DNA of 64,000 bases. It comes from Pseudomonas sp. DG56-2. Its GTDB lineage: Bacteria > Pseudomonadota > Gammaproteobacteria > Pseudomonadales > Pseudomonadaceae. The DNA lies in assembly GCF_004803755.1 (NCBI RefSeq), contig NZ_CP032311.1:122501-186500 (forward strand), written 5' to 3'. The notes under the pieces were generated by a model. It was not told where the DNA came from, ran no database searches, and saw only the letters and a list, made by a program, of their open reading frames with translations. Below, in pieces: positions 36,271-55,014 of the stretch (positions are counted from its first letter, which is position 1; each line of letters begins with the position of its first letter). Made by a program: the position numbers and the translations under genes.

Positions 36271-36296
36271 TAGTCGACAAGCTGATCATTAAATGA

Positions 36297-36761
36297 TCAT
36301 GCGATCCCCTTCGGGTTCGGGCCGAAACGGTTGGCGCCCGGGGTGCTGTCCAGGCACAGGAAGACGATATTGACGAATGGCAGCAGCAACCACCAGCCGC
36401 TACGGTCGCTGTCGTGCATGCGACGAACACCAACGGCGATGCCGGGTATGAACATCGCCAGCGAGTACACGTTGGAGAGGGTTGCGTTCATTCCCAGCAG
36501 CGCTTCGACAGTGGCAATACCACAGGCAATCAAAAAGTTGATCAGGAAGAACATCCAGTATTCCTTGCGGCGCGCGCGGCCGGCGAATACGGCGTACTTC
36601 TTCAGTACGGCGATGTACCAGTTACCTGTTTGCTCAGGCGCAACTGCTGCTGTCGAAGCCGGCGTACTGCGGTTGAAAGCTTGCGGCGCGCCGCACTGTG
36701 GACAGGCGACGGCGCTTTGGTGGATCTCTTTGGCGCAGCCCCGGCAAAAAACCATACTCAT
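36297..36761 (-). CDS. Zinc-ribbon DUF805 membrane protein
   Basis: A 154-residue protein. Residues 6-24 form a four-Cys zinc ribbon (CRGCAKEIHQSAVACPQCG); the rest is a DUF805 membrane domain with the usual FAGRARRKEYWMF and RRMHDSDRSGWW signatures and three to four helices. DUF805 function is unknown. It is 15 bp after a second gene with almost the same zinc ribbon, and both follow the VWA genes on the same strand. GAGGGA provides the ribosome site. Confidence 0.9.
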   Translation of the reverse strand: MSMVFCRGCAKEIHQSAVACPQCGAPQAFNRSTPASTAAVAPEQTGNWYIAVLKKYAVFAGRARRKEYWMFFLINFLIACGIATVEALLGMNATLSNVYSLAMFIPGIAVGVRRMHDSDRSGWWLLLPFVNIVFLCLDSTPGANRFGPNPKGIA

Positions 36762-36776
36762 TTGTTATCCCTCACG

Positions 36777-37130
36777 TTAATTAATTGAATATCCAATAAA
36801 CACAAACAGCGAAATGCCCGACATGACCACGCCGGCAATGCCCATGTTGCTGCCGGGCTGTCGCTGGGCAATGCTGATGACGCCTAAAACCAGACTGGCG
36901 ATGGCAAACACCGAGAGTCCAGCGACGGTGTCACTGTCCCAGTCAGATATATCGAACAAGGACAGGACGCAAAGAATGCCGAGAATCAGCGAAACAATGC
37001 CCATCCACGGCGACACTTCAGTGGCCGCTGAGGTTGGGGCTTGCAGGAACTGAGATGCACCGCATTGAGGGCAGGTGGGCGCCGTTTCATGTATTTCCTT
37101 GGCGCAACCGCGACAAAAAACCATTGTCAT
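36777..37130 (-). CDS. Zinc-ribbon small membrane protein, paralogous N-terminus
   Basis: About 117 residues. The N-terminus (MTMVFCRGCAKEIHETAPTC) is almost the same zinc ribbon as in the next gene; the rest has three membrane helices of the DUF4190 style (WMGIVSLILGILCVL, AIASLVLGVISIA, IAGVVMSGISLFVF). ATG at 37130 has AAAGGA 7 nt upstream; a longer frame to 37184 lacks support. The gap to the VWA gene before it is 107 bp, long enough for a separate promoter. Confidence 0.82.
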   Translation of the reverse strand: MTMVFCRGCAKEIHETAPTCPQCGASQFLQAPTSAATEVSPWMGIVSLILGILCVLSLFDISDWDSDTVAGLSVFAIASLVLGVISIAQRQPGSNMGIAGVVMSGISLFVFIGYSIN

Positions 37131-37237
37131 GACAAATCCTTTTGCGGGTTTCTGCTGCGTATCGGCAGCAGAAATTGGAAGCAAAGTTTACCAATTATTT
37201 CCGTGGTGGCGAAATAATGGCGATGATAATTCGACGC

Positions 37238-38503
37238 TCAATTGCAGCCGGACACGTTTGAAACCTCCAGGCTGGCTTCCTGCAATGCGGCGGCCACGGC
37301 GGCGGCATCGTTGGCGGTATACACACGGCCGCCAGTGTTCTCTGCGGCACAGTTGGAGCCGGTGCTGGCGCTGATGTTGACGATGTTGACCCGCAGGCGT
37401 GGTTGCTGCTCAGCAATCTGGCGCGAAACTGCGCACACGCTCTGACCACAGCTGTCGCTACCATCGACGAACATGATGATCACGCCGTCGCGGTCGCGGC
37501 CGTTCATGTGGGAAGCAGCGGCTTCCAGACTGGTGCCTAATGCGGTTCCGCCTTGAGGCTGCAACCTGTTGATGCGCTCGATCAGATTGCTGCGTTGGCC
37601 GGGGTCGAATACGCCATGGTCCTGAGGCGAGTGGCAACCATCGAAGGTGACCAGGCGCATATCGATTCCCTGCTCCAGATTCTGGATCACGGTGCTCAAT
37701 GAGCTTTTGGCCACGTCCATGCGTGTAACTCGCTGCTTACTGTCATACGGCAGAAACTCTTCGACCAAGGGGACCTTGCGCAGCAATGTGATGTACCACT
37801 GTTCGCCTTCACGTTTGACCCTGATCCGTTCATCCATGGAACCCGACGTGTCGAGTACCACGGTAAATTCCGAAGGCTGAAAGTTCGTTGTCGGGGTGCA
37901 GATCTGGTTCTGCGATGAAACTGTCGCCCACAACTGGCGCAAGGAAGGCCACCACAGATACAACGCGAACAGCAGGGCAAGCAGAAGCAACCCCAGCAGC
38001 CACGGCCAAAGTACCAACGGTCGACGCGGCGCTGTCGGTCGAGGTGGCGCTGATGCCGGCCGAGGCGCAGGCGCAGCAACCTTCGGCACGGCCGCCGCAG
38101 GCACCGGCTGTGGCTGTGGCTGCCCCCAGCGCACCACCAGCGGTTCGCCATTGATGCTGTACAGATTGTTCAAGTCGGGTTCGCCAACCAGCTTGGTCAG
38201 CGCTTGAGCGGCTGCAGTCTGCCCACGTCGTTCGAGTTCGTGGGCCAGTTGCTTCACCGCTGCCTGGCGCTCTTCATAGCGCCTGAGCAGTTCGGCCTGC
38301 TGCTGGCGCTCAAGGCTGGTATAGAGGTGAGGTTGGCCTTCAAGCTCCGACCACCACTCCAACACACCGTCGCGCGCTTGGCGCGGTATGGCATACAGGT
38401 GGGCAATGCTGGGTGGAAAGTGCTGACGAATCAGCGCGACTGTCTGTTCCAGCGCTGCGGCTGCTTCCTGGCTGGCCTGGGTATCACGTATGACTCGCTG
38501 CAT
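37238..38503 (-). CDS. Membrane-anchored VWA protein, srf cluster (paralog 2)
   Basis: A 421-residue protein. The cytoplasmic N-domain (1-130) ends with NLYSINGEPLVVRW; a Pro/Ala-rich linker follows, one membrane helix at about 165-188, then a periplasmic VWA domain from about 210 with the MIDAS motif DTSGSMDE and later GGTALGTSLEA and MFVDGSDSC. Several Cys in the VWA part may form disulfides. It is a clear paralog of the next upstream gene (same N-domain pattern FPxSxAxLYAxPR and EWWxELEGQP, same VWA), 12 bp away. It is probably a periplasmic ligand-binding arm of the Srf system. Confidence 0.85.
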   Translation of the reverse strand: MQRVIRDTQASQEAAAALEQTVALIRQHFPPSIAHLYAIPRQARDGVLEWWSELEGQPHLYTSLERQQQAELLRRYEERQAAVKQLAHELERRGQTAAAQALTKLVGEPDLNNLYSINGEPLVVRWGQPQPQPVPAAAVPKVAAPAPRPASAPPRPTAPRRPLVLWPWLLGLLLLALLFALYLWWPSLRQLWATVSSQNQICTPTTNFQPSEFTVVLDTSGSMDERIRVKREGEQWYITLLRKVPLVEEFLPYDSKQRVTRMDVAKSSLSTVIQNLEQGIDMRLVTFDGCHSPQDHGVFDPGQRSNLIERINRLQPQGGTALGTSLEAAASHMNGRDRDGVIIMFVDGSDSCGQSVCAVSRQIAEQQPRLRVNIVNISASTGSNCAAENTGGRVYTANDAAAVAAALQEASLEVSNVSGCN

Positions 38504-38515
38504 GTGAGTGCGTCT

Positions 38516-39943
38516 CTACTCGCAGTTGGTATTGGCGGAAACTTCCTGGCTGGCCTGCTCGATAGCAATGTCCAGTTGTGAAGCGTTGTTCACCGAGTAG
38601 ACCTGGCCACCTGTACGCTGAGCGACGCAGTCGGCCAGGCTGTTGGTGCTGATGTTGATCAGGTTGATTTTCAGGCGCGGCTGGTCCTGGGCAATGCGCT
38701 GCGCGACTTCGCAGATGTTGCGACCGCAGCCATCTTCGCCGTCGGCAAACATGACAATCACCCCATCGCGATCTCGGCCGTTCATGCTGCTGGCAGCCAT
38801 CTCCAGACTTGCGCTCAGCGCGGTGCCATCGTCGGCCTTAAGACCCTGGATGCCGCGGATCAGCGCAGGTCGCTGGGCTTTGCCGAACACGCCGTGGTCA
38901 ACGGGGGTACGGCAACCATCGAATGTCACCAGACGCATGTCGATGGCCGGATGCAGGTCCTTGACCATTTGCGTCAGAGACTGCTTGGCCACGTCCATGC
39001 GTACAGGTGGTTGAGTGATTCTGGCGAAGATCGCAGGGTCGGCGAAGGGGTTGTCCAGGTTCCTGAAGAACCACCTCTCATCCTTCAAAGAGGCATCGAC
39101 ACTGAGGTTCATAGACCCCGAGGTATCAAATACGACCGCCAACTGAGGGGGCTGAGTGTTCGTGTACTTGCGACATACAGCAGGCTTTGCCGATGCGCTT
39201 GCCTCGGCCTGTTTGGGCTTGGCAACCGGCGGAGGCTCGGGCACCACGGGAGGTTCAGGTTCAGGTTCAGGTTCAGGTTCAGGTTCAGGTTCAGGTTCTG
39301 GAGTCGGCACTGGCAACTCAGGTGTCGGCGTTATCGCAGATTCGCTGTTGATCACCGGCTGTTCCACTGCGCTCGGTTGTAGGTTATGCCCGAACCATTG
39401 GCGCAGGAACGGGCAGTCGAACCATAGCGCTGCCAGGAGCGCCAGCAGCGCTAGCAAGGGCAACAGAAACCACGGCAGCCAGAAAATCCAGCGCCGCCGA
39501 GGCTTGGCTGCCGGCACGACCGGTGGCAAGGGTTGCGGTGGAGTGGCCACCACCACAGGCGCATCCCACCGTACCAGCAACGGGTAGCCATTGACGCTGT
39601 AGAGGTTATCCAGATTCGCCGGACCGATCAGGCGGCGCAGTGCCGACGCGTCGCTGGTTTGCCCGCGTTGCTCCAGTTCAGCGGCCAATTGTCCAATAGC
39701 ATCCTGGCGCTGCTCGTACACGCCCAACAAAGCCGTTTGTTGCTCGGCATTGAGCTCGTGGTACAAGCGTGGCTGTCCTTCCAGCTCCGTCCACCACTCA
39801 CGCACTCCGTCACGGCCTGCACGGGGCTTGGCGTAGAGTTGGGCGACACTTGCAGGAAAATGCTTGGTAATGATCGCGACTGTCTGGACGAGATCGGCCA
39901 GGCCGGAATGGTCCGGCCCGGCATCACGGGTAACCCGCTGCAT
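38516..39943 (-). CDS. Membrane-anchored VWA protein, srf cluster (paralog 1)
   Basis: A 475-residue protein with the same plan as its neighbour: a cytoplasmic N-domain (1-125, ending LYSVNGYPLLVRW), a Pro-rich linker, a membrane helix at about 152-173, a Pro-Glu repeat linker at about 208-240, then a VWA domain from about 265 with MIDAS DTSGSM, DDGTALSASLE and MFADGEDGC. The extra Pro-Glu linker, coded by a hexanucleotide repeat, would hold the VWA domain further from the membrane than in the paralog. It is 45 bp after a lipoprotein gene on the same strand. Confidence 0.86.
   Translation of the reverse strand: MQRVTRDAGPDHSGLADLVQTVAIITKHFPASVAQLYAKPRAGRDGVREWWTELEGQPRLYHELNAEQQTALLGVYEQRQDAIGQLAAELEQRGQTSDASALRRLIGPANLDNLYSVNGYPLLVRWDAPVVVATPPQPLPPVVPAAKPRRRWIFWLPWFLLPLLALLALLAALWFDCPFLRQWFGHNLQPSAVEQPVINSESAITPTPELPVPTPEPEPEPEPEPEPEPEPPVVPEPPPVAKPKQAEASASAKPAVCRKYTNTQPPQLAVVFDTSGSMNLSVDASLKDERWFFRNLDNPFADPAIFARITQPPVRMDVAKQSLTQMVKDLHPAIDMRLVTFDGCRTPVDHGVFGKAQRPALIRGIQGLKADDGTALSASLEMAASSMNGRDRDGVIVMFADGEDGCGRNICEVAQRIAQDQPRLKINLINISTNSLADCVAQRTGGQVYSVNNASQLDIAIEQASQEVSANTNCE
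39252..39299. repeat. Hexanucleotide microsatellite (GGTTCA)x8
   Basis: Seven GGTTCA units plus GGTTCT, 48 bp, inside the 475-residue VWA gene, coding on the minus strand for a Pro-Glu repeat linker. Gain or loss of units keeps the frame and changes only linker length. Confidence 0.92.
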
Positions 39944-39988
39944 GATGAAATCCTGAAAAAGTACGGCAGCCGAAGCTGCCGATGGGGC

Positions 39989-40492
39989 TTACTCGTAACC
40001 CAAACTCAACTGCAGGCGACTAACCTGCTGCTGCAGGGCCTTGAGTTCTTGCTTGCGGGCTTCGATCTGGGCACTGCTGGCGTTTTTTGCCGGAGCGCCT
40101 TGGCCTGCCTTGAGCTGCTGTTCCAGCCCGGCGATCTGCTGTTGCACATCGCTCTTGTTGCCGTGACGCGCCTTGAGGGTGGCCAGCAGTCCATTGAGCG
40201 ACTTTTGCAGGTTTGCCTGTTGGCGCTGCTGAGTGGCCAGGTCCTGGCGCGTCGAAGCTTGCAGGGCGCTGAGCTCGTCATAGACCTGGTTGAACTGGCG
40301 ATTCTGCTCACGGGCTGCGACCAGATCCTGCTCGCTGTTACGCACTTGCTCGGCGTAACCGCCGCCGTAGTCGCAGTTGAGCTTACTGATCAGGCTGGCG
40401 CTGCTGTCGGAGGCCGTGCACTGTGACGCTGTGGTTGCGCAGCCGGCGAGGGTACCTAGCAGCAGTGCGCAAAAACCGATTCTTACCAACAT
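39989..40492 (-). CDS. Coiled-coil lipoprotein, srf cluster
   Basis: A 167-residue protein with a lipoprotein signal (lipobox LAGC, Cys at 18) and a mostly helical mature part with heptad-like Gln- and Leu-rich segments (DLATQQRQQANLQKSLNGLL, QELKALQQQVSRLQLSL). I do not recognise a family. It probably forms an elongated periplasmic rod or spacer. It follows another coiled-coil lipoprotein gene by 9 bp, and the two may work together. Confidence 0.8.
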   Translation of the reverse strand: MLVRIGFCALLLGTLAGCATTASQCTASDSSASLISKLNCDYGGGYAEQVRNSEQDLVAAREQNRQFNQVYDELSALQASTRQDLATQQRQQANLQKSLNGLLATLKARHGNKSDVQQQIAGLEQQLKAGQGAPAKNASSAQIEARKQELKALQQQVSRLQLSLGYE

Positions 40493-40501
40493 GCCTTGTC
40501 C

Positions 40502-41233
40502 TCAGCCCAGAGTGATTGCCGAGCGCTGGTCGTAGAGGCCATCGACCTCTTTTTGCAGCGATGCAACCTTGGTGTTCATCTTGGCGATCTCGGATTCGAC
40601 CTTCTGTACTTCAACCTGGTCGGAACCACTTTCACGCTCGAGCTTGGCGACGTTCTCGAACTCAGTGATGCGGGTTTGCATATTCTTGACGTCTTTGCGC
40701 ATCAGATCGAGGTTCTTGTCGATGGTGACGATGCTCTGCTGAGCCTTGGCCTTATCGACAGTCTTGGCCTTGATATCGCGCTGGATGTCGGCGATCTGTT
40801 GCTTGTCGTCATTGATAACGCGCTGCAGGGTGTTGGTACGTTCAGCCACCTTGGCAGTTTCTTTCTGCACATCGGCGCTCATCACGTTCAGACGTTGAGT
40901 GGTGTCGGCATACTTGGCACGACGATCATCCAGGTAGTAGTTGGCACCCATGGCCACGCCACAAGCGGCCAGTCCCGCAGCCACGGCGCAGACCGCCTTG
41001 TTGCCCGAGTTGGACAGCGTGCAAACCAAAATGCCACCTGCAGCGGCTACCGCGCAGGCCTGATAACCGGAGGCGCTGAAGAACTTGGCGTCGTTACCCG
41101 ACGTCAAGCGCGGGTCGGCGCCGCTGTCGCCGAGCAGCGAGCTGCCTGTGCTGGCGCAGCCGCTCAGCACCAGGCTGAATGCAACCATCAGACCGATCCA
41201 TACCCGCGAAATACCCGGCTTGTTTGTGTTCAC
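40502..41233 (-). CDS. Coiled-coil lipoprotein with glycine-rich segment, srf cluster
   Basis: A 243-residue protein. The lipoprotein signal ends at LSGC (Cys at 26). A hydrophobic, Gly/Ala/Cys-rich segment at about 55-95 (ACAVAAAGGILVCTLSN, AVAAGLAACGVAMGANYY) resembles glycine-zipper regions that insert in membranes, and is followed by a long coiled coil (about 105-243). I see no known family beyond that. It is 25 bp after the SUMF1-like gene. An outer-membrane-anchored, inward-reaching rod is one reading. Confidence 0.8.
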   Translation of the reverse strand: MNTNKPGISRVWIGLMVAFSLVLSGCASTGSSLLGDSGADPRLTSGNDAKFFSASGYQACAVAAAGGILVCTLSNSGNKAVCAVAAGLAACGVAMGANYYLDDRRAKYADTTQRLNVMSADVQKETAKVAERTNTLQRVINDDKQQIADIQRDIKAKTVDKAKAQQSIVTIDKNLDLMRKDVKNMQTRITEFENVAKLERESGSDQVEVQKVESEIAKMNTKVASLQKEVDGLYDQRSAITLG

Positions 41234-41258
41234 GTTGGCTTTCCTTGTGCGCTATTGA

Positions 41259-42809
41259 TTAGTGAGTTACGGCCTTGCAGCTCTTGAGCCAGGCGTTGAT
41301 GTCGATCTTCTGGGTTTTCAGGAACGCCGACTGGTTGGCCCAATGTGTCGTCAGGTAAGGCTTGAGTTCCGAAAGATTCTTGTTGGCCGTCAACACGCCT
41401 TCGAGCACCGGCACCTGGGCTTCGAGCAGTGATTGGCCGTAGAGCGAGCCGGAGTCCACCAGTGAGCTGGCGTAGTAACGGCTGAGCTTGTGCAGGCGAT
41501 CGCTCTGCTCGTCGAGCTTGGATTTGCGCATGCCGCAGGTAGGATCTTCCTCGCCAGCCTTGCAGTTGGCGGCATAGTTTTTCTGCAGGAAGTCCAGGTA
41601 CTGGCCGTCATCGAGCATCTTGGTGCACAGGAAGGCACCCAGGTTCAGGCTGGCGCGAATCGCTTGGTCGCGGGCTTCCTGTTGCTGCTGGTTGCTGGCA
41701 CGCAGCTGGTTTTCCACAGTCTTGAGCTGGTCCTTGAGGCCTTGGTCTTCAACGCTCGATGCCAGCTCTTCAAGCGCTTTGACGGTGCCTTTGTCCTTTG
41801 GGTCGGCGGACGGCTGATCGTTACCCAGCTTGCTCCAGCTTTTTTCGATGCTGCTGACCCGTTCGCGGGAGGTGAGGGTCGGCGAGACCATGGCCAGGCG
41901 CACGCCGTTGGTTTTCTTGGTTACCGGGCCCTGAGCGTTGTAGTAGGGTTCTTCCTGGCGCAGCGCCGTGCGCAACTGACCTTCAGCGGTCAGGAAGTTG
42001 CCACCGCGAACGACATAACCGCCGGCTTGACCATGCTGACGGTCGAGCTTGTTAAGGCGGAAGGGTTCGAACATCATCTCGCTGGCGTTGCCAAGCATGT
42101 CGTGCAAGCCCAGCGGATTGGGTTTGAGCAAACCACTCAACTGCAACTTGCCGTTGGACGATTGCGCGCCGGCAAACCATTCGTAGGCGTTCAGGCCCTC
42201 CGGCATAGGGTAGCGGCCATCACGAAACTCCGCGGTACTCACTTGCAGGCCGCCACGGGCAGCGAATTCCCACTCGGTTTCGGTGGGCAGGCGCAGGAAG
42301 CCCTGGGCGCCGTCTTCACTTGGTAGTTTGCTGGCGGCGTTGGTGCGCAGCCAGCGGTTGTACTTGTCCGCAGCCTGCAGTGCATCCAGCCAACTGATCG
42401 ACACCACCGGCAGGCGTAGTTTGTTCGACGGCGTCGGGCAGTTGTCTTCAGTCAAAGCCTGATACTGAAGCTGAGTCATCTCGTACTTGGCCATCAGGTA
42501 GTAACGAGACTTTTCGCCCTTGGCCGTGGTGAAACTGCCCGAGATAAAGGCTGGGCGAGTCTGTTCTACATAGCCCCACTCGGCACTGTCCTGACCAATG
42601 TTGATCGGGTAGTCATCCAGCGGCCCGGCCAACGGGATCAGCACTTTGCGAAACACCATCGAGCCTTCGCAGGGCATCGGCAGCACCACGTCATCGGCGT
42701 CGGGCATCGGGTTGAAATGTTTTTCTTCCCAGGCAGCGGCTGAAGCGTTAAGCAGGTAGCCGAAACTCAGGGGCACAAGTAGTAGACGGCAGCAGGCTTT
42801 AAAGCTCAC
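41259..42809 (-). CDS. Periplasmic formylglycine-generating-enzyme-like protein, srf cluster
   Basis: A 516-residue protein: a signal peptide (about 1-25), then a SUMF1/FGE-sulfatase fold at about 50-310 with hallmark segments YEMTQLQYQALT, LPVVSISWLDALQAADKYNRWLR, RLPTETEWEFAARGG, GLHDMLGNASEMMFEPFR, YVVRGGNF and GVRLAMVSP. The paired catalytic Cys of true FGE are not evident, so it is probably a binding or structural member. The C-terminal 190 residues are helical and partly coiled coil. The first codons overlap the permease gene by 11 bp. Confidence 0.88.
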   Translation of the reverse strand: MSFKACCRLLLVPLSFGYLLNASAAAWEEKHFNPMPDADDVVLPMPCEGSMVFRKVLIPLAGPLDDYPINIGQDSAEWGYVEQTRPAFISGSFTTAKGEKSRYYLMAKYEMTQLQYQALTEDNCPTPSNKLRLPVVSISWLDALQAADKYNRWLRTNAASKLPSEDGAQGFLRLPTETEWEFAARGGLQVSTAEFRDGRYPMPEGLNAYEWFAGAQSSNGKLQLSGLLKPNPLGLHDMLGNASEMMFEPFRLNKLDRQHGQAGGYVVRGGNFLTAEGQLRTALRQEEPYYNAQGPVTKKTNGVRLAMVSPTLTSRERVSSIEKSWSKLGNDQPSADPKDKGTVKALEELASSVEDQGLKDQLKTVENQLRASNQQQQEARDQAIRASLNLGAFLCTKMLDDGQYLDFLQKNYAANCKAGEEDPTCGMRKSKLDEQSDRLHKLSRYYASSLVDSGSLYGQSLLEAQVPVLEGVLTANKNLSELKPYLTTHWANQSAFLKTQKIDINAWLKSCKAVTH

Positions 42810-44022
42810 GCAGACTCTCCGCAGGTTGAATGTTTATCGCCCGTAGGGCACCGATCAGGGCGACCAGGGCAGCGACAAGGAAGGCTAGGAACAGGGCAAC
42901 CAGGCCATGCCAGACAGTGATGTGACAAACGAACGTGCCCGTGGCCTGGCTGCTGCCCAGCAGGTGGTCGAACAGCAGGCTGCCGACAAAGTAGCTGGCC
43001 AGCCCGCCGAGGTAGCCGACCACACTCAACAACAATGCTTGCAACACCACATAACCGGCCACCGCCGCAGTGCCGAAGCCGAGCAGGCGCAGCACGGCAA
43101 GATTGCGGCGCTTGCGATCGATGTTGGCCAGGAAGGCACCCACCAGCGAGGCGATGCAGCCGATCAGCGCAGCGCCGGCAATCACGCCGAAAATCAGCCC
43201 CAATACGTGGTTGATCGCTTTGACGCTGTCGATTTCGGCCAGGCGGCTGCTGGTCTCGATGCGTTGCCCGTTGAGCCAGCGCTCCAGCGGTTCGACGCTA
43301 TCGATATCGCGAGCGTAGAGGCGCGCGCGGGCATAGCCGACCTTCACGCCATCCATGGCTTTGCCCGTGACGCCGCCCAGACCTGCGACCTGATAGCCAT
43401 CCCGGTAATACTCAAGCTCAAGCAGAAGCTGCGGGCTGACGAACGCTGCCGGGCGCGCGAATCGTGCGGGTTCCAGTACCGCCTGCACTTGCAGGGTGCG
43501 TTCACCGCGTTCGTTGATGCCGTCCATACGCCGGGCCACGCGCAGGCGCACAGTGTCGCCGGCCTTGGCCGCCAGACGCTCGGCAGCACGCGCACTGAGA
43601 ATCACCTGATTGCCTTGCAATGCGCTCAACGGCGATTTGAGTAGAGGGTCGTTGGCCTGTGTAGGGATAACTTCAACGTTGTCGGCAAAACGGCCTCGCT
43701 CACCCAGCAAGTCAGCCTGGGTATTGAGCGAGCGAGTCTGACCGATGGCGAAAGCAACCTGGGGCTGTTGGCGCAGATTATCCAACCATTGATTGTCGTA
43801 ATGACCGCTGCTGAGCATCTTGATTTCAAGGTTGCGCGGGTCGCTCAGCAACTCTTCCTGCAGTTGGCTGACAACGCCATGTTTGAGGCCGAACAACAGC
43901 AGCAGCGGGGCGATCACCGCCACCAGCGACGCAGCCATGCACAATGTAACCTTGCGGTCGTGCCACAGGTCCGCCAGGGATAGCTGGGCCAGCAGGGCAA
44001 GGCGCTTATACCAGGGGTTCAA
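42799..44022 (-). CDS. MacB/LolC-like ABC transporter permease, srf cluster
   Basis: About 407 residues with the MacB/FtsX layout: a membrane helix near the N-terminus (about 25-50), a large periplasmic domain (about 55-275), then three helices at the C-terminus with the FtsX-type segment RKRRNLAVLRLLGFG. The start chosen is TTG at 44022, because GGAAGGAG lies 8 nt before it; a GTG at 44052 would add 10 residues. Proteins of this type move no substrate through the membrane but pull on periplasmic partners or lipoproteins. It pairs with the ATPase gene it overlaps. Confidence 0.85.
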   Translation of the reverse strand: MNPWYKRLALLAQLSLADLWHDRKVTLCMAASLVAVIAPLLLLFGLKHGVVSQLQEELLSDPRNLEIKMLSSGHYDNQWLDNLRQQPQVAFAIGQTRSLNTQADLLGERGRFADNVEVIPTQANDPLLKSPLSALQGNQVILSARAAERLAAKAGDTVRLRVARRMDGINERGERTLQVQAVLEPARFARPAAFVSPQLLLELEYYRDGYQVAGLGGVTGKAMDGVKVGYARARLYARDIDSVEPLERWLNGQRIETSSRLAEIDSVKAINHVLGLIFGVIAGAALIGCIASLVGAFLANIDRKRRNLAVLRLLGFGTAAVAGYVVLQALLLSVVGYLGGLASYFVGSLLFDHLLGSSQATGTFVCHITVWHGLVALFLAFLVAALVALIGALRAINIQPAESLREL

Positions 44023-44704: not shown

Positions 44705-44709
44705 GGAAC

Positions 44710-46665: not shown

Positions 46666-47693
46666 TACTTGAGCTCCTCGTAACGCTGCTTGGCGTCGGC
46701 GTTGGTTGCATCGAAACCGAGAATGGTCTCGTACCAGTACGCCGCAGTGGCATTGTCTGGCGCCTTGAAGCATTCACTTGGCTGGTGAAACTTGGGGTCG
46801 TACTCGTGGGCGTAGGCGGTGGCGATCAGAATATCGCCGCTTTGCGCGCGGTTGGCGTACAGACGCTGAGCCACGTTGCAGTTGTTGTTGGCCTTGGCCA
46901 CGTTGATCACTTCCAACAGCGCTGCGCTACCTGGGGCCTTCTGAATACAGCTTTGGACAAAGGCCAGTTCCTGCAGGCTCTGCATGCTTTCCAAGGAGCA
47001 CGCTGGTGCTGGCGCCGTTGTCGTCGTATCAGGTTCAGGCGCTGGCGGTAAGCTGGCCACTGGCTCGGGCTGCTGCTTGAACCACCACAGACCAGCAGCA
47101 ACTGCCAGCAGCACGATCAACAACAGCAGTAGTCCCGGCATCCAGCGACTTTTCTTCACTGACGCAGCGTTAGCCGACACAGGTTCAGAAATAGGTTCTG
47201 CAGTGATGGGCGTTTCGATCAGAGGTTCCGGTGCAGCGTCAGAGAGCTCCGGCTCCGGTACGGGAATTGGAGCTGGAGCTGGAGCTGGAGCTGGTGCAGG
47301 TGGCGGTGTTAGCTCGGGCTTTTTCGCCCCAGTCGAAGCGATGGAAGCCAGCAAGTGCTTGTCCAAACGCACCATGGTTGCTTCAGTCTGACCCGCGTGA
47401 TTCAGCGTGATGCGGAAGTTGGCATTGCCGCTGGCAGCCAGCAGCGGGTCGATCAGATCCGGGCCAACCTGAACCTGTAGGGCGTCCGTACCTTCAGCAG
47501 GTGTCAGCCCCGGCAGGGCGAACCAATGGGCAACGGTTGTCCACTGTTTGCCTGGCTGCAAAAACTCACGGGACTGGCTGCTTTGCACTGAATACTCCAG
47601 CCCTTCGCTGGCGCCTGTCCAACCGCTGAGCCGCAGCCACCCCATGCCCGGCGTGTTGTCGTCCAACGGCAGCACATCAACTTTGATACTCAT
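46665..47693 (-). CDS. Membrane-anchored helical-repeat protein, srf cluster
   Basis: A 342-residue protein. The cytoplasmic N-domain (1-115) looks like a beta-sandwich (VDVLPLDDNTPGMGWLRLSG). A Pro/Ala-rich linker coded by a GGAGCT repeat follows, then one membrane helix at about 187-207 and a periplasmic part (about 235-342) with Sel1/TPR-like helices and four Cys. It begins 4 bp after srfC and ends in TAATG with the VWA gene. By layout it links the cytoplasmic SrfBC part to the periplasmic part. Confidence 0.8.
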   Translation of the reverse strand: MSIKVDVLPLDDNTPGMGWLRLSGWTGASEGLEYSVQSSQSREFLQPGKQWTTVAHWFALPGLTPAEGTDALQVQVGPDLIDPLLAASGNANFRITLNHAGQTEATMVRLDKHLLASIASTGAKKPELTPPPAPAPAPAPAPIPVPEPELSDAAPEPLIETPITAEPISEPVSANAASVKKSRWMPGLLLLLIVLLAVAAGLWWFKQQPEPVASLPPAPEPDTTTTAPAPACSLESMQSLQELAFVQSCIQKAPGSAALLEVINVAKANNNCNVAQRLYANRAQSGDILIATAYAHEYDPKFHQPSECFKAPDNATAAYWYETILGFDATNADAKQRYEELK

Positions 47694-47697
47694 GCAA

Positions 47698-50394
47698 TCA
47701 ACTCGCTTCGAATGTGTTCAACAGAACAGCCAGTTGGCGGCGCTGCTCAGTGGTAATTTCGGGGTCGGCGCCGCTTTTGGCGTTTTCCTGAGTGAGCCAA
47801 GCCAGGCCCGACAACCAATCCACTTGGTAGCGTTGTTCCTGGTGGGTCGGCTGCTCTGACAATTGCGGCAGGTCGCCCGCCGGTACCGAGCGATAGAAGC
47901 TGAACACTGGCGTCCGGTCGCCCAACAGGCTGTTGGGCCGCTCGGCTTCAGGCTTGGCAAGCAAGCCGAACCAGGAAAGGAAGTCACGCATCAACAACTG
48001 AACGGACAGCACCTGACGCTGCACCAGTTGGTCACGGTGAATGCCACCTTGCGCACGGCGCGATACCGCAAGATCCAGTTCCGCCATGAAGGCGTTGCTG
48101 CGCACAGCACTGATCAGCTCTTCGGTGAGGGCATCGACCAGTTCTTTGCTCATGCGCAGGCTGTTGAGCAGCAGAATGCGTGTGCCGACATCACGCATAT
48201 GCTTGATCCAGGCCTTCAGCGCGGCGCGGGCGAAGCGTTGCTCAGGTGTCAGGCGCTGGGCCAGGGGTTTCTTCGCGGCTGCGGCAGACTCAGCCTGAGA
48301 GTTGGCAAACATGTTGCCGAAGTTCAACGCAGGTGCCTTGTTGGCGGGCGCCCTGTGTGCCGGCTCTGGTTCAGACTCCGCTTCGGCGTCCAAACCATCA
48401 ATGTCGTACACGCCACCCAGGTACAGCTCGCGCAGTTGCTCGACAGGCAATTGCAGCGCATGGATCAAATCCCCGATGACATCCGGGTCGGCGCCCAGGT
48501 TATCGAGCAGGTATTGGGTTTTCTGGCGTTTCTTGTTCAGCAGTTGCTCGAAGTCCTCTTCGCGCCAGACGTGCATGCCGTGTTCCAGAAGGTCGGTTCG
48601 GCACTGATGTAGTTGTTCCTCGATGCGGCTCAATTTGAAGTCAATGTTGGCCACATTCTTGAAGTTGTCACTGAATCGAGTAATGCCGCCGTTGTTCAGG
48701 CCCAGCATCGCCGCGAAGGCTTCCTGCGGATCTTTCACATGACGTTGAACGGTAGGGTGGCCGACGAAGGTCTCGGTCAAATCCTGCACGTGCTGTTCAC
48801 TGTGGAAAGCACATTCATCGCCGTTGGCATCCCTGTCAATGAAGGTGCAGGCGAATCGGGGCTTGCGCACCAGGAAGGTGTTGTTGAACGGCGCACCCGA
48901 CCAGTCTTTCATCCATTCCAGATTGCCGAAGCGCTCGATCAGCGTCATGGTCATCATGTTCTGCCAAAGCTCAGGCAGCGCTTGCTTCTTCTTGTCGTGG
49001 GTTGTGCCGATGAATACATCGAGCATGGTCAGCGCCCAGATAAGTCCCGGTGCTCGGTGGCTTCGTTCTTTGGGTGTTGCACCTTGAGTGGTTTGAATCC
49101 AGCGTGTCAGCACCGGGCCGATGGTGACCACATCCGCCTGTACTTTGGTACTGGTGCACATGACCAGGGCGTTCATCTGCTGGGTGTCGCTGTAGCGCTC
49201 GAACAGATAGGCGACCTTGCCACGCAAGAGCAGGTTCGAAACAGGATTGGTTTCCTGGATGCCGGACCCTTGGGCTTCTTCGATTTTCATCAATTGAAAA
49301 CGGGTGCGGTAACCAGGGAAGTCGAGCAGGTCCGCGTCTTTGAGCAAGTCGGCCTGGGGCTGGTTGGTCAGGCGGAAGGTCATCTCCACCGTTAACGCGG
49401 CCAATTGGCCGATGGTTATCCCAACAGGTGTCTGAGGCTTGCCGTCACGCATCGGCAGGATGGTAATCGGATTGTCGCGGCTGGTGCCCAAACGCCCCAG
49501 CGTGTCGACGTTCATGATGTTCTGAACCTGAAGGTAGGTTCCGTCCACTTTTTCGACCAGTGCGCTCACTGGAGCGAACACCGTCTGCGGGTGCCCCAGT
49601 TTGTGCAGCGCGCCAACCAACTGCTCGTAGACTTCAGTCAGCAGCGATTGCTCGCCCCAGAGGATCGAAAACAACTTGGCGCGCTGACGGTAATTCAGAC
49701 GCGGCGCCAGCTTCAAAACGCGCGGCCAGTAAGTCTCGCCCAGTTTGCGTACCGCCTTCTCATAGTTGCCATTGAGATAGTCCCAAAGCGCAACCACATC
49801 GTCAGCGCTTACACCTGGCTGAAGGTTTTCTGTTTCACGCCCCTCGAATCCCGAAAGGGCTGACTGAATACGTTGCTCGTCGAACTCGTAATCGAATTTG
49901 TCCTGGTTGAAGTCTTCGAACCAGGTGTTGGCGAGCATTTTCGCTACTTCGATTTCGCTGAACAGCTTCAATTCCACGGGATAGTTGGCATCAGGGCTAG
50001 GCTGCGCCGAGGAACTGAATCGGGTCACTACACCGGTAGCTTCCTTACCCGAACCTGGAGGGTTGACGTGCTCAAGGAAGTTGAAAGGCTCCCCTGCGAA
50101 GTCTGTCGTCAGATTGCCCTCAGTGTCGGCAGCCAGAGAGGAAATCAGGTACGACTTGCCAGCCTGGGACATGCCGAAAAAGCCGATTACCATCGGCGTT
50201 TCAGCGGCCTGTTGCAGGTTCTTGGCCAGGTTGCGTGCGCGGTGCAGGCGCAGGCTCAGGCCGTCGGCCTCGGCCTCGACACTGGCGGCGTTGCCACGGA
50301 CCTGTTCGATCCACGTCAGTGCTTCGCCTGCACCCTTGTGGACGGCGCCCCAAGCGCCGGTCAGTTGTTGCTGCTTTGGCGTTAGTTTGCTCAT
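47698..50394 (-). CDS. srfC: SrfC-family P-loop GTPase-like protein
   Basis: An 898-residue member of the putative virulence factor family (SrfC, Virul_Fac). The P-loop GMSQAGKS is at 74-81, and a G3-type motif DFPG lies at about 356-360, so it looks like a large dynamin-like GTPase; a clear NKxD base motif is not found. Long helices around it (about 1-65 and 600-898) fit a stalk. The ATG at 50394 overlaps srfB as ATGA; a start 10 codons earlier is rejected. First named as a Salmonella SsrB-regulated factor; the biochemical role is unproven. Confidence 0.9.
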   Translation of the reverse strand: MSKLTPKQQQLTGAWGAVHKGAGEALTWIEQVRGNAASVEAEADGLSLRLHRARNLAKNLQQAAETPMVIGFFGMSQAGKSYLISSLAADTEGNLTTDFAGEPFNFLEHVNPPGSGKEATGVVTRFSSSAQPSPDANYPVELKLFSEIEVAKMLANTWFEDFNQDKFDYEFDEQRIQSALSGFEGRETENLQPGVSADDVVALWDYLNGNYEKAVRKLGETYWPRVLKLAPRLNYRQRAKLFSILWGEQSLLTEVYEQLVGALHKLGHPQTVFAPVSALVEKVDGTYLQVQNIMNVDTLGRLGTSRDNPITILPMRDGKPQTPVGITIGQLAALTVEMTFRLTNQPQADLLKDADLLDFPGYRTRFQLMKIEEAQGSGIQETNPVSNLLLRGKVAYLFERYSDTQQMNALVMCTSTKVQADVVTIGPVLTRWIQTTQGATPKERSHRAPGLIWALTMLDVFIGTTHDKKKQALPELWQNMMTMTLIERFGNLEWMKDWSGAPFNNTFLVRKPRFACTFIDRDANGDECAFHSEQHVQDLTETFVGHPTVQRHVKDPQEAFAAMLGLNNGGITRFSDNFKNVANIDFKLSRIEEQLHQCRTDLLEHGMHVWREEDFEQLLNKKRQKTQYLLDNLGADPDVIGDLIHALQLPVEQLRELYLGGVYDIDGLDAEAESEPEPAHRAPANKAPALNFGNMFANSQAESAAAAKKPLAQRLTPEQRFARAALKAWIKHMRDVGTRILLLNSLRMSKELVDALTEELISAVRSNAFMAELDLAVSRRAQGGIHRDQLVQRQVLSVQLLMRDFLSWFGLLAKPEAERPNSLLGDRTPVFSFYRSVPAGDLPQLSEQPTHQEQRYQVDWLSGLAWLTQENAKSGADPEITTEQRRQLAVLLNTFEAS

Positions 50395-53300
50395 TTTCCT
50401 TTGACGTTCCCGCTGTCGAGCCAATAGTCACTGTCACTCAGGTTGCCGGTAGGCATGGTGTTGAGTGAAAGCTCAAGATCCCGTTCGAAATCGAAGTCGG
50501 CATCCTGAATGTTCGATTTCAGATCAGAAATAATCAGCTTGTCGCTGATCAGTCCTTGCTCGAGCAGCAGGTCCGAAGGCTCGTCTACCGCCAGGCGAAT
50601 GCGCAGCACCGGCGCTTCACCATCCTTGCCAACAGCCTGGGAGAAATTTCGACTGCCACGAGTGGTGAATCGCAGGGTATAGAGCGGCGAAGCTGACCAG
50701 CGCTCGGCGGCCAGTTGCCGGTAGCCCAGGTGCATATCGCCACGCATTTCCAGCCATGGCGTACCACGCTCTTCGCCCTCGCCGACAACCGGCAACTCGA
50801 TGCGGCCGCGGTCAGAGGTAAGGTTGTGATAGAGCACATCGCCATGCTTGATGGTGCCGGCGTTATCGATCTGGCCGAAATGCTTGACGGTCGAGTACGG
50901 CTTGAGCGCAGCGGTGCGGAAATAGAAGTTCGGCACACTGTGCTTGGCACACAGCAGGCAAATCATGGCGCCAACCGATGCCGTGCTTTTCGGGTCGTCG
51001 ATCAGGCCGTTCTTATGGAACGGATACCAGCCACCGGTGCGGTAGTTCTGCAATGGCAGAATGCGTCCCGGAGGCAGGGGCAGGCGTTGGCGAATGAATG
51101 CCTGGATACCTGGCAGGCGTGACGGACGCCCGGTCAACAGCAAGACGTCGCACGGATAGTGAGAAATCACCTCGCACAATTCGCTCAACACCTTGGTGAT
51201 GTTGATCTGCCCGCCAATAAAGGCCAGATGCACCTCTTCAAGGTTCAGCGCGAGCGGCGTACTCAGCAGCTCCAGCGTGCCATCCCGGCCGACTTCACGG
51301 CGAACCGCAGCATTGACGAATTCCAGCACACTGTCGTTGACCTTCGCCTCGCCGAGCAGTTGTTGCCAACTTTGTTCGACCACGGGCAAGGGTGTTTCAG
51401 GATCATATTGTTCATAGGCCTTGAGCAATGCCAGGCCCAGCGGTACGAACACCTGAAGGTTGAGTTGCTGGCGCAGAACTCGTTCCTGGGCACTGGCTTC
51501 GCCGTTACCGCACAGGCGCGACATCAGCGCATCCGGGGCGGGTACACCGGCTTGCTGCAAGGCGCGCTTGAACGAAGGCAGAATGAATTCGCGGATCACA
51601 TCCAGAAGGATGTCGTCGCCAGCGATCTTGAAACCATCACGAAAGCGTTGATCAGGCACGATGTGCACGTTGGCGCCATTACCGCCATTGGCACCACGAT
51701 CCAGACGGTAGTCAGTAATCACCACGTCTGTGGTGCCGCCACCGATATCGATGGTCGCCAGGGTTACTTGTTCGCTTTCGGTTTTGTCCGGACGGGCCAG
51801 CGTGGCGAAAAACTCTTCCGGGTGACCGGCAAAGTTCTCGCTGATCTCGTTGTACAAGTAGACCAACTGGCCGCAACTGGCCTCGTCCCATTCCACACGG
51901 ATGCTCGGCAACGGCGTGCGCGGTACGACGCTTTTGTCCTTGAATGGGTTGCTGTCACCTTCATGCCAGCCGAGGCTTTTCCACACCAGGCCGACGGCTT
52001 CGAACATCCGATTGCTGAGGATGCTGCGCTCTGCCTGGGGCATGCCTGGCGGTACAGTCAAGGTGATGCTGTTGAGTAAGCGCGGTACCCGGGCATGGCC
52101 CTGGCGTGAACGCTGTGCCGGGCTGTTGATTTGCGACAGCGCCTGGGTCACGACTTCGGCAAGCATGAAGGTCATCAGGTTGCTGCGCGAATAATGCGGG
52201 GTGAATACCTGCATATCGTTTTTTGGCGGCAGGTACAGGGCCTGGCCGAGGTCGTTGATCAGGTTCGAGAAAGGTGCGGCGATCGCTTCTGGTTCGTCGC
52301 TGGCTTTCAAGTAGGCGGTATTGAAACGCCAGCCATGACCGTAGGACTTCTCGTCCCACAAATAGCGTTTCGGGCTGGACAGCCCGGTGGACCCTTCGGT
52401 ACCGCGACGGCGACTGGCCAGGCGCGCTGCCTCACCACCAACGCGAGCAAAAGTCGGCCACTGGAATGCATCGTGGCGGCCGCTCTTGCTCGACAGTTGG
52501 TCATTGCCGAAAGAGGCACGAGTGAATTCGACCCGGCTTTCGAACGCCTGGTTATAGATATGGTGTGGCTCGGTCAGATCGCGCAGTTCCAGCACATAGT
52601 TGTTGCGCATACCTGCACCGGCCTGGCCGTGGTCCTCAATCAGGATGCCGCAGGTCCGCGAGTTGCCGACGTCCAGCACCAAGTCAACCTTGATCGGCAG
52701 TACGATACCCTGGGCATCGTTGGCGACTACTTTGACTTCCGGGATCTCGACCTTGGGCTTCTCGGTGCTTTGTTCGGCCGGGGTAGGGCGACGTAGCAGG
52801 CTCAGCAGGTTGAGGTAGTGGGCGATGTGACGGTTGCCTTGCAGCTCTCGGTCCAGGCGCTCACGCGTCCATTCGGCGCGAGCGTCGGTGTACAGTTCGG
52901 TCAACCATTCACGGATCCAGCTATTGGTCAGAAACCAGCCATACTCGCGTGCGCTGCAAGCCACCTTGAAGGCCACACCGGAGCGTACGTCTTCTTCGCT
53001 TGGCGCCAGGTAGGCGGCGCCTTCGACGTTCTTCATGATGCGGCAGTCGAAGGCCAGGGTCAGGCGGTGGGTATTACCGTCGAGGTCAGGCTCAGGCAAC
53101 TTGACCAGCCGCATCCGCGACCAGTTGTTCGGCCCTTCGTCATAACGGTATGGCGGCATGAAGCGCAAGAAGGGAACCGGTAGCCAGATGCCGTCGAACA
53201 GCTTAAGGCTCTCTTCCATGCTCAAGCGGAAATGGTTGTCTTCGGTGGAGTCGAACTCCACCTGAACCACTTTGTCGGGCTCGGGCTCGTAGAAGTCCTT

Positions 53301-53468
53301 GTATTCCTTGGACCACAACAGGCGGGTCGGAACCATGCCATTGTTGAGCTGAACGAACTTGCCGGCCTGTTCATCGGGCCCCAGGTACAAGGCGAAGTCC
53401 ATGAACTGAATTCCGGTATCGCTGACCAGCGTGACCGTTTCTTCGAACTGAGTGATTTCAGGCAACAT
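50391..53468 (-). CDS. srfB: SrfB-family actin/Hsp70-type ATPase
   Basis: A 1025-residue SrfB protein. The phosphate-1 motif is DVGNSRTCGILIEDHG at about 263-278, phosphate-2 is TIDIGGGTTDVVITDY at about 570-585, and the adenosine motif is LLTGRPSRLPGIQAF at about 774-788. These make it an actin/Hsp70/FtsA-superfamily ATPase with large extra domains; no membrane segment. It starts 17 bp after srfA and overlaps srfC by 4 bp, so the two are translationally coupled. A nucleotide-driven assembly or chaperone role next to the SrfC GTPase is inferred. Confidence 0.92.
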   Translation of the reverse strand: MLPEITQFEETVTLVSDTGIQFMDFALYLGPDEQAGKFVQLNNGMVPTRLLWSKEYKDFYEPEPDKVVQVEFDSTEDNHFRLSMEESLKLFDGIWLPVPFLRFMPPYRYDEGPNNWSRMRLVKLPEPDLDGNTHRLTLAFDCRIMKNVEGAAYLAPSEEDVRSGVAFKVACSAREYGWFLTNSWIREWLTELYTDARAEWTRERLDRELQGNRHIAHYLNLLSLLRRPTPAEQSTEKPKVEIPEVKVVANDAQGIVLPIKVDLVLDVGNSRTCGILIEDHGQAGAGMRNNYVLELRDLTEPHHIYNQAFESRVEFTRASFGNDQLSSKSGRHDAFQWPTFARVGGEAARLASRRRGTEGSTGLSSPKRYLWDEKSYGHGWRFNTAYLKASDEPEAIAAPFSNLINDLGQALYLPPKNDMQVFTPHYSRSNLMTFMLAEVVTQALSQINSPAQRSRQGHARVPRLLNSITLTVPPGMPQAERSILSNRMFEAVGLVWKSLGWHEGDSNPFKDKSVVPRTPLPSIRVEWDEASCGQLVYLYNEISENFAGHPEEFFATLARPDKTESEQVTLATIDIGGGTTDVVITDYRLDRGANGGNGANVHIVPDQRFRDGFKIAGDDILLDVIREFILPSFKRALQQAGVPAPDALMSRLCGNGEASAQERVLRQQLNLQVFVPLGLALLKAYEQYDPETPLPVVEQSWQQLLGEAKVNDSVLEFVNAAVRREVGRDGTLELLSTPLALNLEEVHLAFIGGQINITKVLSELCEVISHYPCDVLLLTGRPSRLPGIQAFIRQRLPLPPGRILPLQNYRTGGWYPFHKNGLIDDPKSTASVGAMICLLCAKHSVPNFYFRTAALKPYSTVKHFGQIDNAGTIKHGDVLYHNLTSDRGRIELPVVGEGEERGTPWLEMRGDMHLGYRQLAAERWSASPLYTLRFTTRGSRNFSQAVGKDGEAPVLRIRLAVDEPSDLLLEQGLISDKLIISDLKSNIQDADFDFERDLELSLNTMPTGNLSDSDYWLDSGNVKGK

Positions 53469-53485
53469 CGTATGCGCTTCTCGTG

Positions 53486-54940
53486 TTATTGGCCGGCTTG
53501 TTCCATCAGCATGTCGAACTCGCTCGCACCGTAGTTACCGGTGCAGCCGGCGATGCTGTTGGCGCCTGGTTTGCAATTCACTTGGGGGAGGTCGTAGCTG
53601 CTGCCGTCAGCACAAGCTGCTTGCGCTTCACTGGTAATCGACAAGTTGCCGCCATTCATTGCCGCTACTACCGGAGCATTGCAGCGCACGCCGTCGGGGC
53701 GTTTTACCGTGGCCTGGCCCTTGCCGTTCTGGAAGTCGTACTTGAGGCTCAGCGGCTTGCCGGTGCCCACTTCCTGAATGCCGGCACCGTTGTAGTTGCC
53801 GTTAAGGAAATCTGCAGCGCCGTTGCCTGCATTGGGCGGAATGGTCAATTGGGCCGACTGAGGTTGCGGCTCGTCTGGTAGCTCAGGTGGTGTTTGAGGT
53901 TGTTGGTCTTCAGCAATTTGTGGCGGCGTGGGCGCTTTGTCGTCCGGGGGTTGAGGCGCTTCGGTTTTCGATGCGTCGGCCTGCGGGTCACCCGTTTCCG
54001 AGTTATTGGACTCAGGCGCTTGAAGCACGCCGGGCTCAGGAGCAGGCTCGATGCGTCCAGCGTCACCTTGGCCTTGAATCAGACCCGTATCGGTATTGGT
54101 ACCTATTACCGCGCCCGGCACTTGTTGGCCATTGACTGAAGGCTCGATTGTTTTTCCGCTGGGAATGTTTACCTCGTGTTTAGGCAGCTCGGCCAGCGGC
54201 AACCCGCCAAAGCCCAAGCCTGGCCAGCAACCACGTAGGCCGAAAAGCAAGGCCAGCAACAGCAACAGCGCCAACAGCCAGAGCAAATACCGCCACCAGG
54301 GGCGTTTGGCGACTGCGTTGATAACCGGTGCGACTTCGGGCTGTAGGGGTGGCACTACGGGTGGCACCACGGGCGGTACTGGCGGCGGCGAAACAGGCTC
54401 GACGACTTTGGCTGTTTTTGGATAGAGGCAGTGCAGGGGCTCTCGGCTGCGTTCGGCGCCAGCGTGAATAAAACCCCAGAAAGTCAGAACAGGCTTGCCA
54501 TCGACCAGGTAAACGAAATTTTCGTCAGGGAAGGGCACTACACAGGTCAGCAGCTTGCCGAACACCGTCCGGTCACCTTGAGCGCCAGGTTTGGTCCCCG
54601 GTTTAGGTTGACCATTGGCGTCCAGACCCAGCAGGTCGTTGCTCAGGTCGATAATTTTGCTTTGCAGCAGTTCCAGCTGTGCACGAGCCGGTGCGCGTTC
54701 TTCTTCGGTCGCGCTGCTCCAGGGAATAACATCGCCAAGGCGATCGCTGTACCAATCGATCTTGCTGCCAAGCTCGTCGGTTTGAGGGATTGCAAGGTGC
54801 TCGATCAGCTCGGGATGGTCGGGGTTTTTACGCCGAATCGCTTCACGAAGTTGTAGCGCAGCCCGGTAGACCGGTTGACCCGTTTCTCCCAGTGCAGTGA
54901 ATTGTTCACTTTTACCGCTGCGTAGCAGTACTCCGCGCAT
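53486..54940 (-). CDS. srfA: SrfA-family membrane protein, first gene of the srf cluster
   Basis: About 484 residues. The cytoplasmic N-domain (1-200) begins MRGVLLRSGKSEQFTALGE and ends with FVYLVDGKPVLTFWGF; a Pro-rich linker, one membrane helix at about 240-262, a low-complexity Pro/Glu/Gln periplasmic stretch (about 290-390) and a small Cys-containing C-terminal domain follow. ATG at 54940 is preferred, since AGGACAAGG lies right before it and the family begins there; an ATG at 55027 would add 29 residues of unlike sequence. It heads the 14-gene run. Confidence 0.88.
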   Translation of the reverse strand: MRGVLLRSGKSEQFTALGETGQPVYRAALQLREAIRRKNPDHPELIEHLAIPQTDELGSKIDWYSDRLGDVIPWSSATEEERAPARAQLELLQSKIIDLSNDLLGLDANGQPKPGTKPGAQGDRTVFGKLLTCVVPFPDENFVYLVDGKPVLTFWGFIHAGAERSREPLHCLYPKTAKVVEPVSPPPVPPVVPPVVPPLQPEVAPVINAVAKRPWWRYLLWLLALLLLLALLFGLRGCWPGLGFGGLPLAELPKHEVNIPSGKTIEPSVNGQQVPGAVIGTNTDTGLIQGQGDAGRIEPAPEPGVLQAPESNNSETGDPQADASKTEAPQPPDDKAPTPPQIAEDQQPQTPPELPDEPQPQSAQLTIPPNAGNGAADFLNGNYNGAGIQEVGTGKPLSLKYDFQNGKGQATVKRPDGVRCNAPVVAAMNGGNLSITSEAQAACADGSSYDLPQVNCKPGANSIAGCTGNYGASEFDMLMEQAGQ

Positions 54941-55001: not shown

Positions 55002-55014
55002 GAAATGTTGAGCA

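Follow-up and report, generated by a model that had tools for sequence, protein, structure and literature searches.

The window analysed here is a stretch of 64,000 nucleotides at positions 122501–186500 of the genome of Pseudomonas sp. DG56-2 (5.82 Mb, single contig), and the system in question is an extended srfABC gene cluster on its minus strand. On sequence comparison, five of the cluster genes (g5–g9) correspond, in the same order, to ppkA-tagT-tagS-tagR-tagQ, whose products sense damage for the Pseudomonas H1-type type VI secretion system (T6SS). As homologs of these genes, they would form the TagQRST/PpkA envelope-damage sensor in a form that lacks the kinase. The cluster was read as two modules, the g5–g9 sensor and srfABC, with the kinase-free damage sensor coupled to SrfABC; we consider the case for this reading to be evenly balanced. 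The sensor assignment is based on homology, and we infer the coupling to SrfABC and its output. The features of the cluster are listed below in window coordinates.

srfA (g1), 53486..54940, minus strand: cytoplasmic alpha/beta domain, proline-rich linker, one transmembrane (TM) segment and a periplasmic small beta-barrel domain
srfB (g2), 50391..53468, minus strand: ASKHA (Hsp70/actin-type) ATPase by motifs; PF07520, 1281 bits
srfC (g3), 47698..50394, minus strand: predicted dynamin-like GTPase; PF10139, 956 bits
g4 (TMx), 46665..47693, minus strand: cytoplasmic domain, proline-rich linker, TM 187–205 and a putative periplasmic helical part, as read in the preliminary description of this DNA
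g5 (VWA1), 44710..46665, minus strand: periplasmic VWA protein, equivalent to the periplasmic half of PpkA without the kinase
g6, 44006..44704, minus strand: TagT-like ABC ATPase; PF00005; hhalign to TagT 8e-70
g7, 42799..44052, minus strand: TagS-like FtsX/MacB permease; PF02687; hhalign 5e-82
g8, 41259..42809, minus strand: TagR-like periplasmic FGE/SUMF1 protein; PF03781, 109 bits; hhalign 4e-66
g9, 40502..41233, minus strand: TagQ-like lipoprotein; lipobox LSGC; hhalign to TagQ 1e-12
g10, 39989..40492, minus strand: second coiled-coil lipoprotein; lipobox LAGC
terminator-like hairpin and T-run, 39964..39981, minus strand: between g10 and g11; conserved in relatives
g11, 38516..39943, minus strand: SrfA-type cytoplasmic domain, TM and periplasmic VWA; VWA_2
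g12, 37238..38503, minus strand: g11 paralog with the same N-terminal domain, TM and VWA; VWA_2, 1.7e-11
g13 and g14, 36297–37184, minus strand: zinc-ribbon membrane proteins; g14 also DUF805

The VWA protein g5 was aligned to residues 401–1016 of PpkA, that is, to its whole periplasmic half, with 40% identity over 630 aa (BLASTP, 1e-143), and comparison with a PpkA profile gave an hhalign E-value of 2e-124. No kinase match was obtained in the Pfam scan of g5, nor in any of 97 VWA1 proteins from srf loci (L159 left out). The excluded locus, from P. chlororaphis, had seemed to encode a TMx–VWA1 fusion, which was rejected: the 978-aa frame was over-extended, and its additional N-terminus fell within TMx in another reading frame. 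Walker A, signature and Walker B motifs were all conserved in g6, and g8 matched TagR of a T6SS-linked locus (L103) by BLASTP with 1e-55. For g9, the profile match to TagQ (hhalign probability 97.8, 1e-12) was accompanied by a weak pairwise match; the protein is a putative outer-membrane lipoprotein. In the PDB sequence search, g8 matched FGE-like chains, including PorK, and g7 matched LolF chains weakly. PHROGs models, applied to eight proteins, returned one match labelled as kinase, which fell on the FGE region of g8.

When 119 genomes of the genus were searched with g7, two classes of matches were obtained: 12 genomes (own included) with 57–100% identity, and 37 genomes with 35–41% identity over approximately 400 aa. 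The remaining matches scored below 30 bits and covered about 70–240 residues. The loci examined were the 11 others of the first class, nine of the second class and five TagS-type loci from a phylum sample of 398 evenly drawn genomes. All 11 first-class loci had the order srfA-srfB-srfC-g4-VWA1-ABC-FtsX-SUMF1-LipA-LipB with g11 or g12, several SrfA ends being cut off at the locus edges. All nine second-class loci encoded a large relative of VWA1, with the ABC, FtsX and SUMF1 genes coming after it as in the first class, and the Pfam scan placed a Pkinase domain at approximately residues 10–255 in three of these relatives. The most closely examined of them, L103, also contained TssA, TssB, TssC, TssE, PAAR, PppA, TagF and TssM. 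In 14 of 14 TagS-type loci, PpkA (kinase plus VWA) was followed by ABC, FtsX and SUMF1, with PppA, TagF and TssM upstream; three of the kinases were scanned by Pfam and the remainder matched by phmmer. PpkA of locus L101 was in two pieces.

Since the second-class loci are threonine phosphorylation pathway (TPP) loci, g6, g7 and g8 are homologs of TagT, TagS and TagR. With the TPP pathway of the Pseudomonas H1/F1-type T6SS, the cluster shares the homologous, collinear VWA (PpkA periplasmic half)-TagT-TagS-TagR-TagQ set, but it lacks the kinase, and neither PppA, TagF nor any Tss gene is located close by. In their place, it has srfABC, g4, a second lipoprotein and SrfA-type VWA adaptors. No genome of the genus had both TagS types (12 versus 37 of 119; hypergeometric 0.0087, kinship ignored), and this mutual exclusion was not used as proof. 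In an unrooted VWA1 tree made by a quick method from hand-chosen rows (29 srf-type, 12 T6SS-type and the distant relative G014; G475 and L205 left out), the T6SS-type rows formed one group at 100, with very long branches.

At least seven VWA1 relatives of 647–661 aa, among the best 120 listed, are publicly named serine/threonine kinase or PpkA (P0255, P0257, P0273, P0297, P0312, P0322 and P0359). On these kinase-less proteins, such names are propagated misannotation.

The species scan, in which one genome per species (84,980 species) was searched with a nine-sequence VWA1 alignment, yielded 480 VWA1 relatives. The best 80 were analysed with up to 10 kb of flank on each side (the 80 loci); this set favours close, srf-type relatives, and the phylum sample served as a less biased check. 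The hosts of the 80 loci were Pseudomonas, Stutzerimonas, Halopseudomonas, Aeromonas, several Enterobacterales genera, Bordetella, Alcaligenes and one metagenome-assembled genome of Paucimonas; the closest named locus was from Pseudomonas arcuscaelestis P66 (VWA1 99% identical). VWA1, ABC, FtsX and g4 were present in 80 of 80 loci, g4 directly before g5, and SrfA, SrfB, SrfC and SUMF1 each in 79, with srfABC and g4 directly upstream of g5. The locus without srfABC (L176) is cut by the end of its contig 555 bases ahead of VWA1, and the one without SUMF1 (L182, Symbiopectobacterium) has its genes in pieces. LipA (g9) was found in 62 and LipB (g10) in 63 loci, the latter including a weak match upstream of srfA in L163. 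Of the 80 loci, 77 had VWA2 or VWA3; those without (L127, L157 and L176) lie at contig edges. Cluster genes were split into several ORF (open reading frame) pieces in L161 (Aeromonas molluscorum) and L182, as was PpkA in L101, which suggests decay or sequencing errors.

In the phylum sample, SrfB was above the cut-off in 21 of 398 genomes (the match of G191, below the family cut-off, was dropped) and VWA1/PpkA was found in 15 at E-values up to 1e-10. Eight of the nine kinase-less modules were in SrfB genomes (Fisher 1.2e-10, phylogeny ignored), and none of the six kinase-bearing ones was. In G114, the cluster was split across two contigs, both ending within g4. The three genomes of family code f50 (G039, G363 and G295) gave no match to the lipoproteins or to a SrfA adjacent to srfB, and in G039 the position of g4 is occupied by a 352-aa protein without a match to g4; the invariant core is thus srfB-srfC-(g4 place)-VWA1-ABC-FtsX-SUMF1. 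The preliminary description had named scattered homologs of the non-Srf genes as a finding that would refute its reading. The main non-Srf genes were found in fixed order after srfABC in 79 of the 80 best loci, in every congeneric locus (11/11) and in 8 of 9 kinase-less modules of the phylum sample.

The ninth kinase-less module, a distant one, was in a genome without SrfB (G014). It is located at 12520–19796 of locus L199 and consists of kinase-less VWA-, TagT-, TagS- and TagR-like genes plus a lipoprotein, the TagS-like protein being longer (607-aa frame). No srf or T6SS marker genes were matched in the 20 kb analysed, and this module would be a third setting of the sensor.

The remaining 13 of the 21 SrfB genomes had srfABC without the module: their short-type loci gave no VWA1 match, and no further neighbour was common to more than 6 of the 13. 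Twelve belong to family code f14, and the other, G139, also has g4. The srfABC operon of the Salmonella and Xenorhabdus papers has the same SrfA, SrfB, SrfC order as these loci, which differ from the extended cluster in lacking a VWA1 match. The Xenorhabdus operon, for which the available text reports T6SS-control-like neighbours, may be of the extended type.

SrfC is predicted to be a dynamin-like GTPase, which sharpens the earlier term GTPase-like. Its AF2 model (pLDDT 81) shows a dynamin-type G domain fold, and the top Foldseek matches were SynDLP, BDLP, Mgm1 and mitofusin. In 110 aligned rows, the residues of the dynamin G1 motif (GxxxxGKS) were conserved as G84 100%, K90 100% and S91 91%, and those of the G3 motif (DxPG; DFPG) as D368 97%, P370 99% and G371 90%. 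At the G4 site, (T/N)KxD, T466 (100%) and D469 (99%) were conserved, but the K position was mostly M. Like the bacterial dynamin-like proteins BDLP, SynDLP, LeoA and IniA, SrfC has a predicted G domain plus helices; it differs from them in its length (898 aa), its atypical G4 and its operon linkage to an ASKHA-like protein.

For SrfB, the motifs alone support a putative ASKHA ATPase. DVGNSRT, DIGGGTTD and TGRPSRLPG, conserved in 111 sequences, occur in the order of the ASKHA motifs PHOSPHATE1, PHOSPHATE2 and ADENOSINE; the first two were in register with DnaK and MreB, and the third with MreB. The hhalign probability in the ASKHA comparison was 37–51%. Searches of PDB sequences with the SrfB and SrfC profiles gave no significant match. 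In all SrfB and SrfC conservation percentages, gaps in truncated rows were scored as differences.

The N-terminal domain of g11 was homologous to SrfA (hhalign probability 99.4, 4e-21, 18% identity over 126 columns), g12 being included with g11 in the joint profile compared with SrfA. In SrfA, g11 and g12, a common cytoplasmic domain is followed by one TM and then by a differing periplasmic domain (barrel or VWA). Because they share this cytoplasmic domain, the three proteins look like alternative transmembrane adaptors. The SrfA model gave no Foldseek match at E-values up to 0.001, and its N-terminal domain was barely covered. For TMx (g4), a relation to the lost membrane half of PpkA was considered and rejected: the hhalign match (91%) extended over only 27 columns around the TM and was not counted as homology.

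The fourteen ORFs of the cluster are all co-directional and span 36297–55027. A 484-aa SrfA in the database (P0121) agrees with the gene end at 54940 given in the preliminary description, and the tight spacing reported there was also confirmed: at 12 of the 13 junctions the genes overlap or lie no more than 45 bp apart, and the remaining gap measures 53 bp. The 109-bp overlap at the g4/g5 junction comes from an over-long g5 ORF; with the likely g5 start at 46665, it is reduced to approximately 1 bp. The earlier domain calls (SrfA, SrfB, SrfC, ABC ATPase, FtsX, FGE/SUMF1, VWA and lipoboxes) hold. Pfam and NCBIfam models named srfA (NF040486, 373 bits), srfB, srfC, the ABC ATPase, the FtsX/MacB permease, the FGE/SUMF1 protein and VWA proteins, the g5 VWA match (22.6 bits) being slightly below the Pfam cut-off. 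By hydropathy, SrfA, g4, g11 and g12 have a single TM segment each, g7 has several, and SrfB and SrfC have none; lipoboxes are present in g9 and g10. The zinc-ribbon genes g13 and g14, which had been counted as cluster members, are not part of the system, since they were seen near the cluster in 1 of 80 related loci only (L104, the closest relative). Elsewhere in the window, a 4741-aa ORF is located at 5217–19442 (minus strand), with ORFs of 718 aa (weak ABC match) and 457 aa near it at 21165–24684 (plus strand); these may encode a giant adhesin together with a type I secretion system.

That the cluster forms one transcription unit, as previously proposed, is doubtful, as a conserved terminator-like hairpin before g11 argues against a uniform transcript. 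The g10/g11 gap contains a GC-rich hairpin followed by a T-run (39964–39981). Such an element was detected in 31 of 54 distinct g10/g11-type gaps (15 bp or longer) of the 80 loci, with 0.4 expected in shuffles; other junctions with gaps of at least 15 bp in these loci had no such element. When 11 g10/g11-type gaps were inspected, 10 had a clear hairpin, and the stem sequences differed. The hairpin probably causes partial termination inside the operon and may lower expression of the VWA adaptors. A further terminator-like site follows g14 at 36245–36271.

The earlier proposal of a trans-envelope machine, with cytoplasmic NTPases driving a periplasmic VWA/SUMF1 assembly, fits in its core idea. 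Its periplasmic part, taken there as new, is the T6SS TagQRST/PpkA sensor without the kinase, a relation that was missed. The statement that the system had not been described as a whole is also only partly right: in 2013, a neighbourhood of srfABC with tagQ, ppkA, tagR, tagS and tagT was described in host-associated Deltaproteobacteria, tagRST missing in two (PMC3608642). Among the literature matches listed, that paper is the only one to join srf and PpkA/Tag genes. The sets have srfB, srfC, tagQ, tagR, tagS, tagT and a gene named ppkA in common, and the available text regards ppkA as a threonine kinase with a possible role in triggering the export of SrfC. In contrast, the gene is kinase-less in the 97 srf-linked relatives analysed here (a set apart from the genes of that paper), and the available text gives no SrfB or SrfC fold. 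Kinase loss, the dynamin fold and the shared adaptor domain were not found in titles and abstracts of the open-licence papers listed; subscription papers and preprints are not excluded by this search. As far as the available texts go, published claims for SrfB and SrfC differ from one another: a predicted effector, a cytotoxic complex, surfactin production and swarming.

In P. aeruginosa, mutants with tagQ or ppkA deleted are reported no longer to assemble the T6SS when the outer membrane is damaged by force or polymyxin B nonapeptide (PMC11881912), and PpkA is described as working by phosphorylating Fha (PMC10482370). In the srf version, the layer in the periplasm and at the outer membrane is retained but the kinase is absent, so that the periplasmic state would be passed to SrfA, g11, g12 and g4. 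In the proposed mechanism, the outer-membrane lipoproteins and the TagR/VWA layer would register local envelope damage, and TagST-type ATPase cycling and VWA contacts would reach these four proteins across the inner membrane. They would recruit or switch SrfB/SrfC. Once assembled at the inner membrane, SrfB/SrfC would reseal or remodel this membrane, taking the place of the PpkA-Fha-T6SS assembly in the H1-T6SS. Membrane remodelling or repair as the output is suggested by the terminal, predicted dynamin-like GTPase. According to the available texts, the three Srf proteins SrfA, SrfB and SrfC from Xenorhabdus associate in a heteromeric complex (PMC6950479), and swarming alone is reported to be affected by srfABC loss in Salmonella (PMC4219756, citing earlier work). 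An undescribed envelope-damage response, in which interchangeable SrfA-type adaptors let the sensor locally switch a pair made up of an ASKHA ATPase and a dynamin-like GTPase, which then seals or remodels the inner membrane, is offered as a tentative possibility.

The same components could serve in defence against phages or interbacterial attack, with the dynamin-like protein resealing or sacrificing the membrane on phage or T6SS attack. The patchy distribution of the cluster (12 of 119 genus genomes) and the dynamin-like SrfC model are in line with this, as is the reported response of the sensor homologs to attack and membrane damage (PMC11881912). PADLOC, however, was applied to 10 of the 14 proteins and gave no match for nine of them; the tenth, g6, matched other ATPase families only, and we regard defence as an unlikely function. 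The check for a defence island covered nine flanking ORFs, scanned with Pfam.

A trans-acting regulator of a T6SS elsewhere in the genome, with the TagQRST-like module serving that T6SS and SrfABC as an extra regulator or effector, would account for the homology of the sensor genes to TagQRST. The genome has one TssK match and no second g8 match, and srf neighbours are labelled T6SS control genes in Xenorhabdus (PMC6950479) and Deltaproteobacteria (PMC3608642), as far as the available texts go. TssK, however, gave no match in four of the eight extended-cluster genomes (G391, G114, G363 and G295) and was present in the other four, own included; because half of the module genomes lack a match, the cluster is not simply a T6SS regulator or part. 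In addition, VWA1 has no kinase, PppA, TagF, TssA, TssB, TssC, TssE and TssM gave no matches in the 80 loci, and Pfam named no T6SS core genes in the window cluster. Of the host-associated strains in PMC3608642, just one is reported to have T6SS machinery, as far as the available text goes. Such a regulator therefore seems decidedly improbable. In L176 (Rahnella sp. AA), a separate 323-aa kinase-domain ORF is located at 7899–8870 (plus strand), approximately 5 kb downstream of the kinase-less VWA1; it is the sole kinase match among the ORFs of the 80 loci.

Equally improbable is SrfABC as a toxin complex secreted or delivered against eukaryotic cells, with the ABC, VWA and SUMF1 genes as its export machine. 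Lysates of E. coli with X. stockiae SrfABC, and the proteins, are reported as toxic to HeLa and insect cells (PMC6950479), and SrfC was a predicted effector (PMC3608642). Against export stand the lack of TM segments in SrfB and SrfC by hydropathy together with their ASKHA-type and dynamin-type features, the single TM of SrfA, the match of g6–g7 to TagST and not to a known exporter, and the 13 of 21 SrfB genomes without the module. Control of the cell wall or of lipoprotein sorting, of the FtsEX/LolCDE kind and with damage sensing not its job, is very improbable: the best curated-family match of g6 is LolD (below cut-off), and g7 matches FtsX/MacB models and, weakly, LolF chains, but TagTS is the far better match in sequence and gene order (g7 35–41%, approximately 400 aa), and Pfam named none of the cluster proteins as a peptidoglycan enzyme.

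If the kinase-free sensor is coupled to SrfABC, the VWA/TagQRST layer would be a transferable sensor that occurs in three or more settings: the T6SS, SrfABC and the stand-alone form of G014. The damage sensor of the T6SS would then be a separable module that is attached to different outputs, and some database PpkA kinases are not kinases. The widespread proteins SrfB and SrfC still go by the name of virulence factors and nothing more. A link to a sensor whose input, outer-membrane damage, has been measured, together with the dynamin-like SrfC model, would make SrfABC function directly testable.

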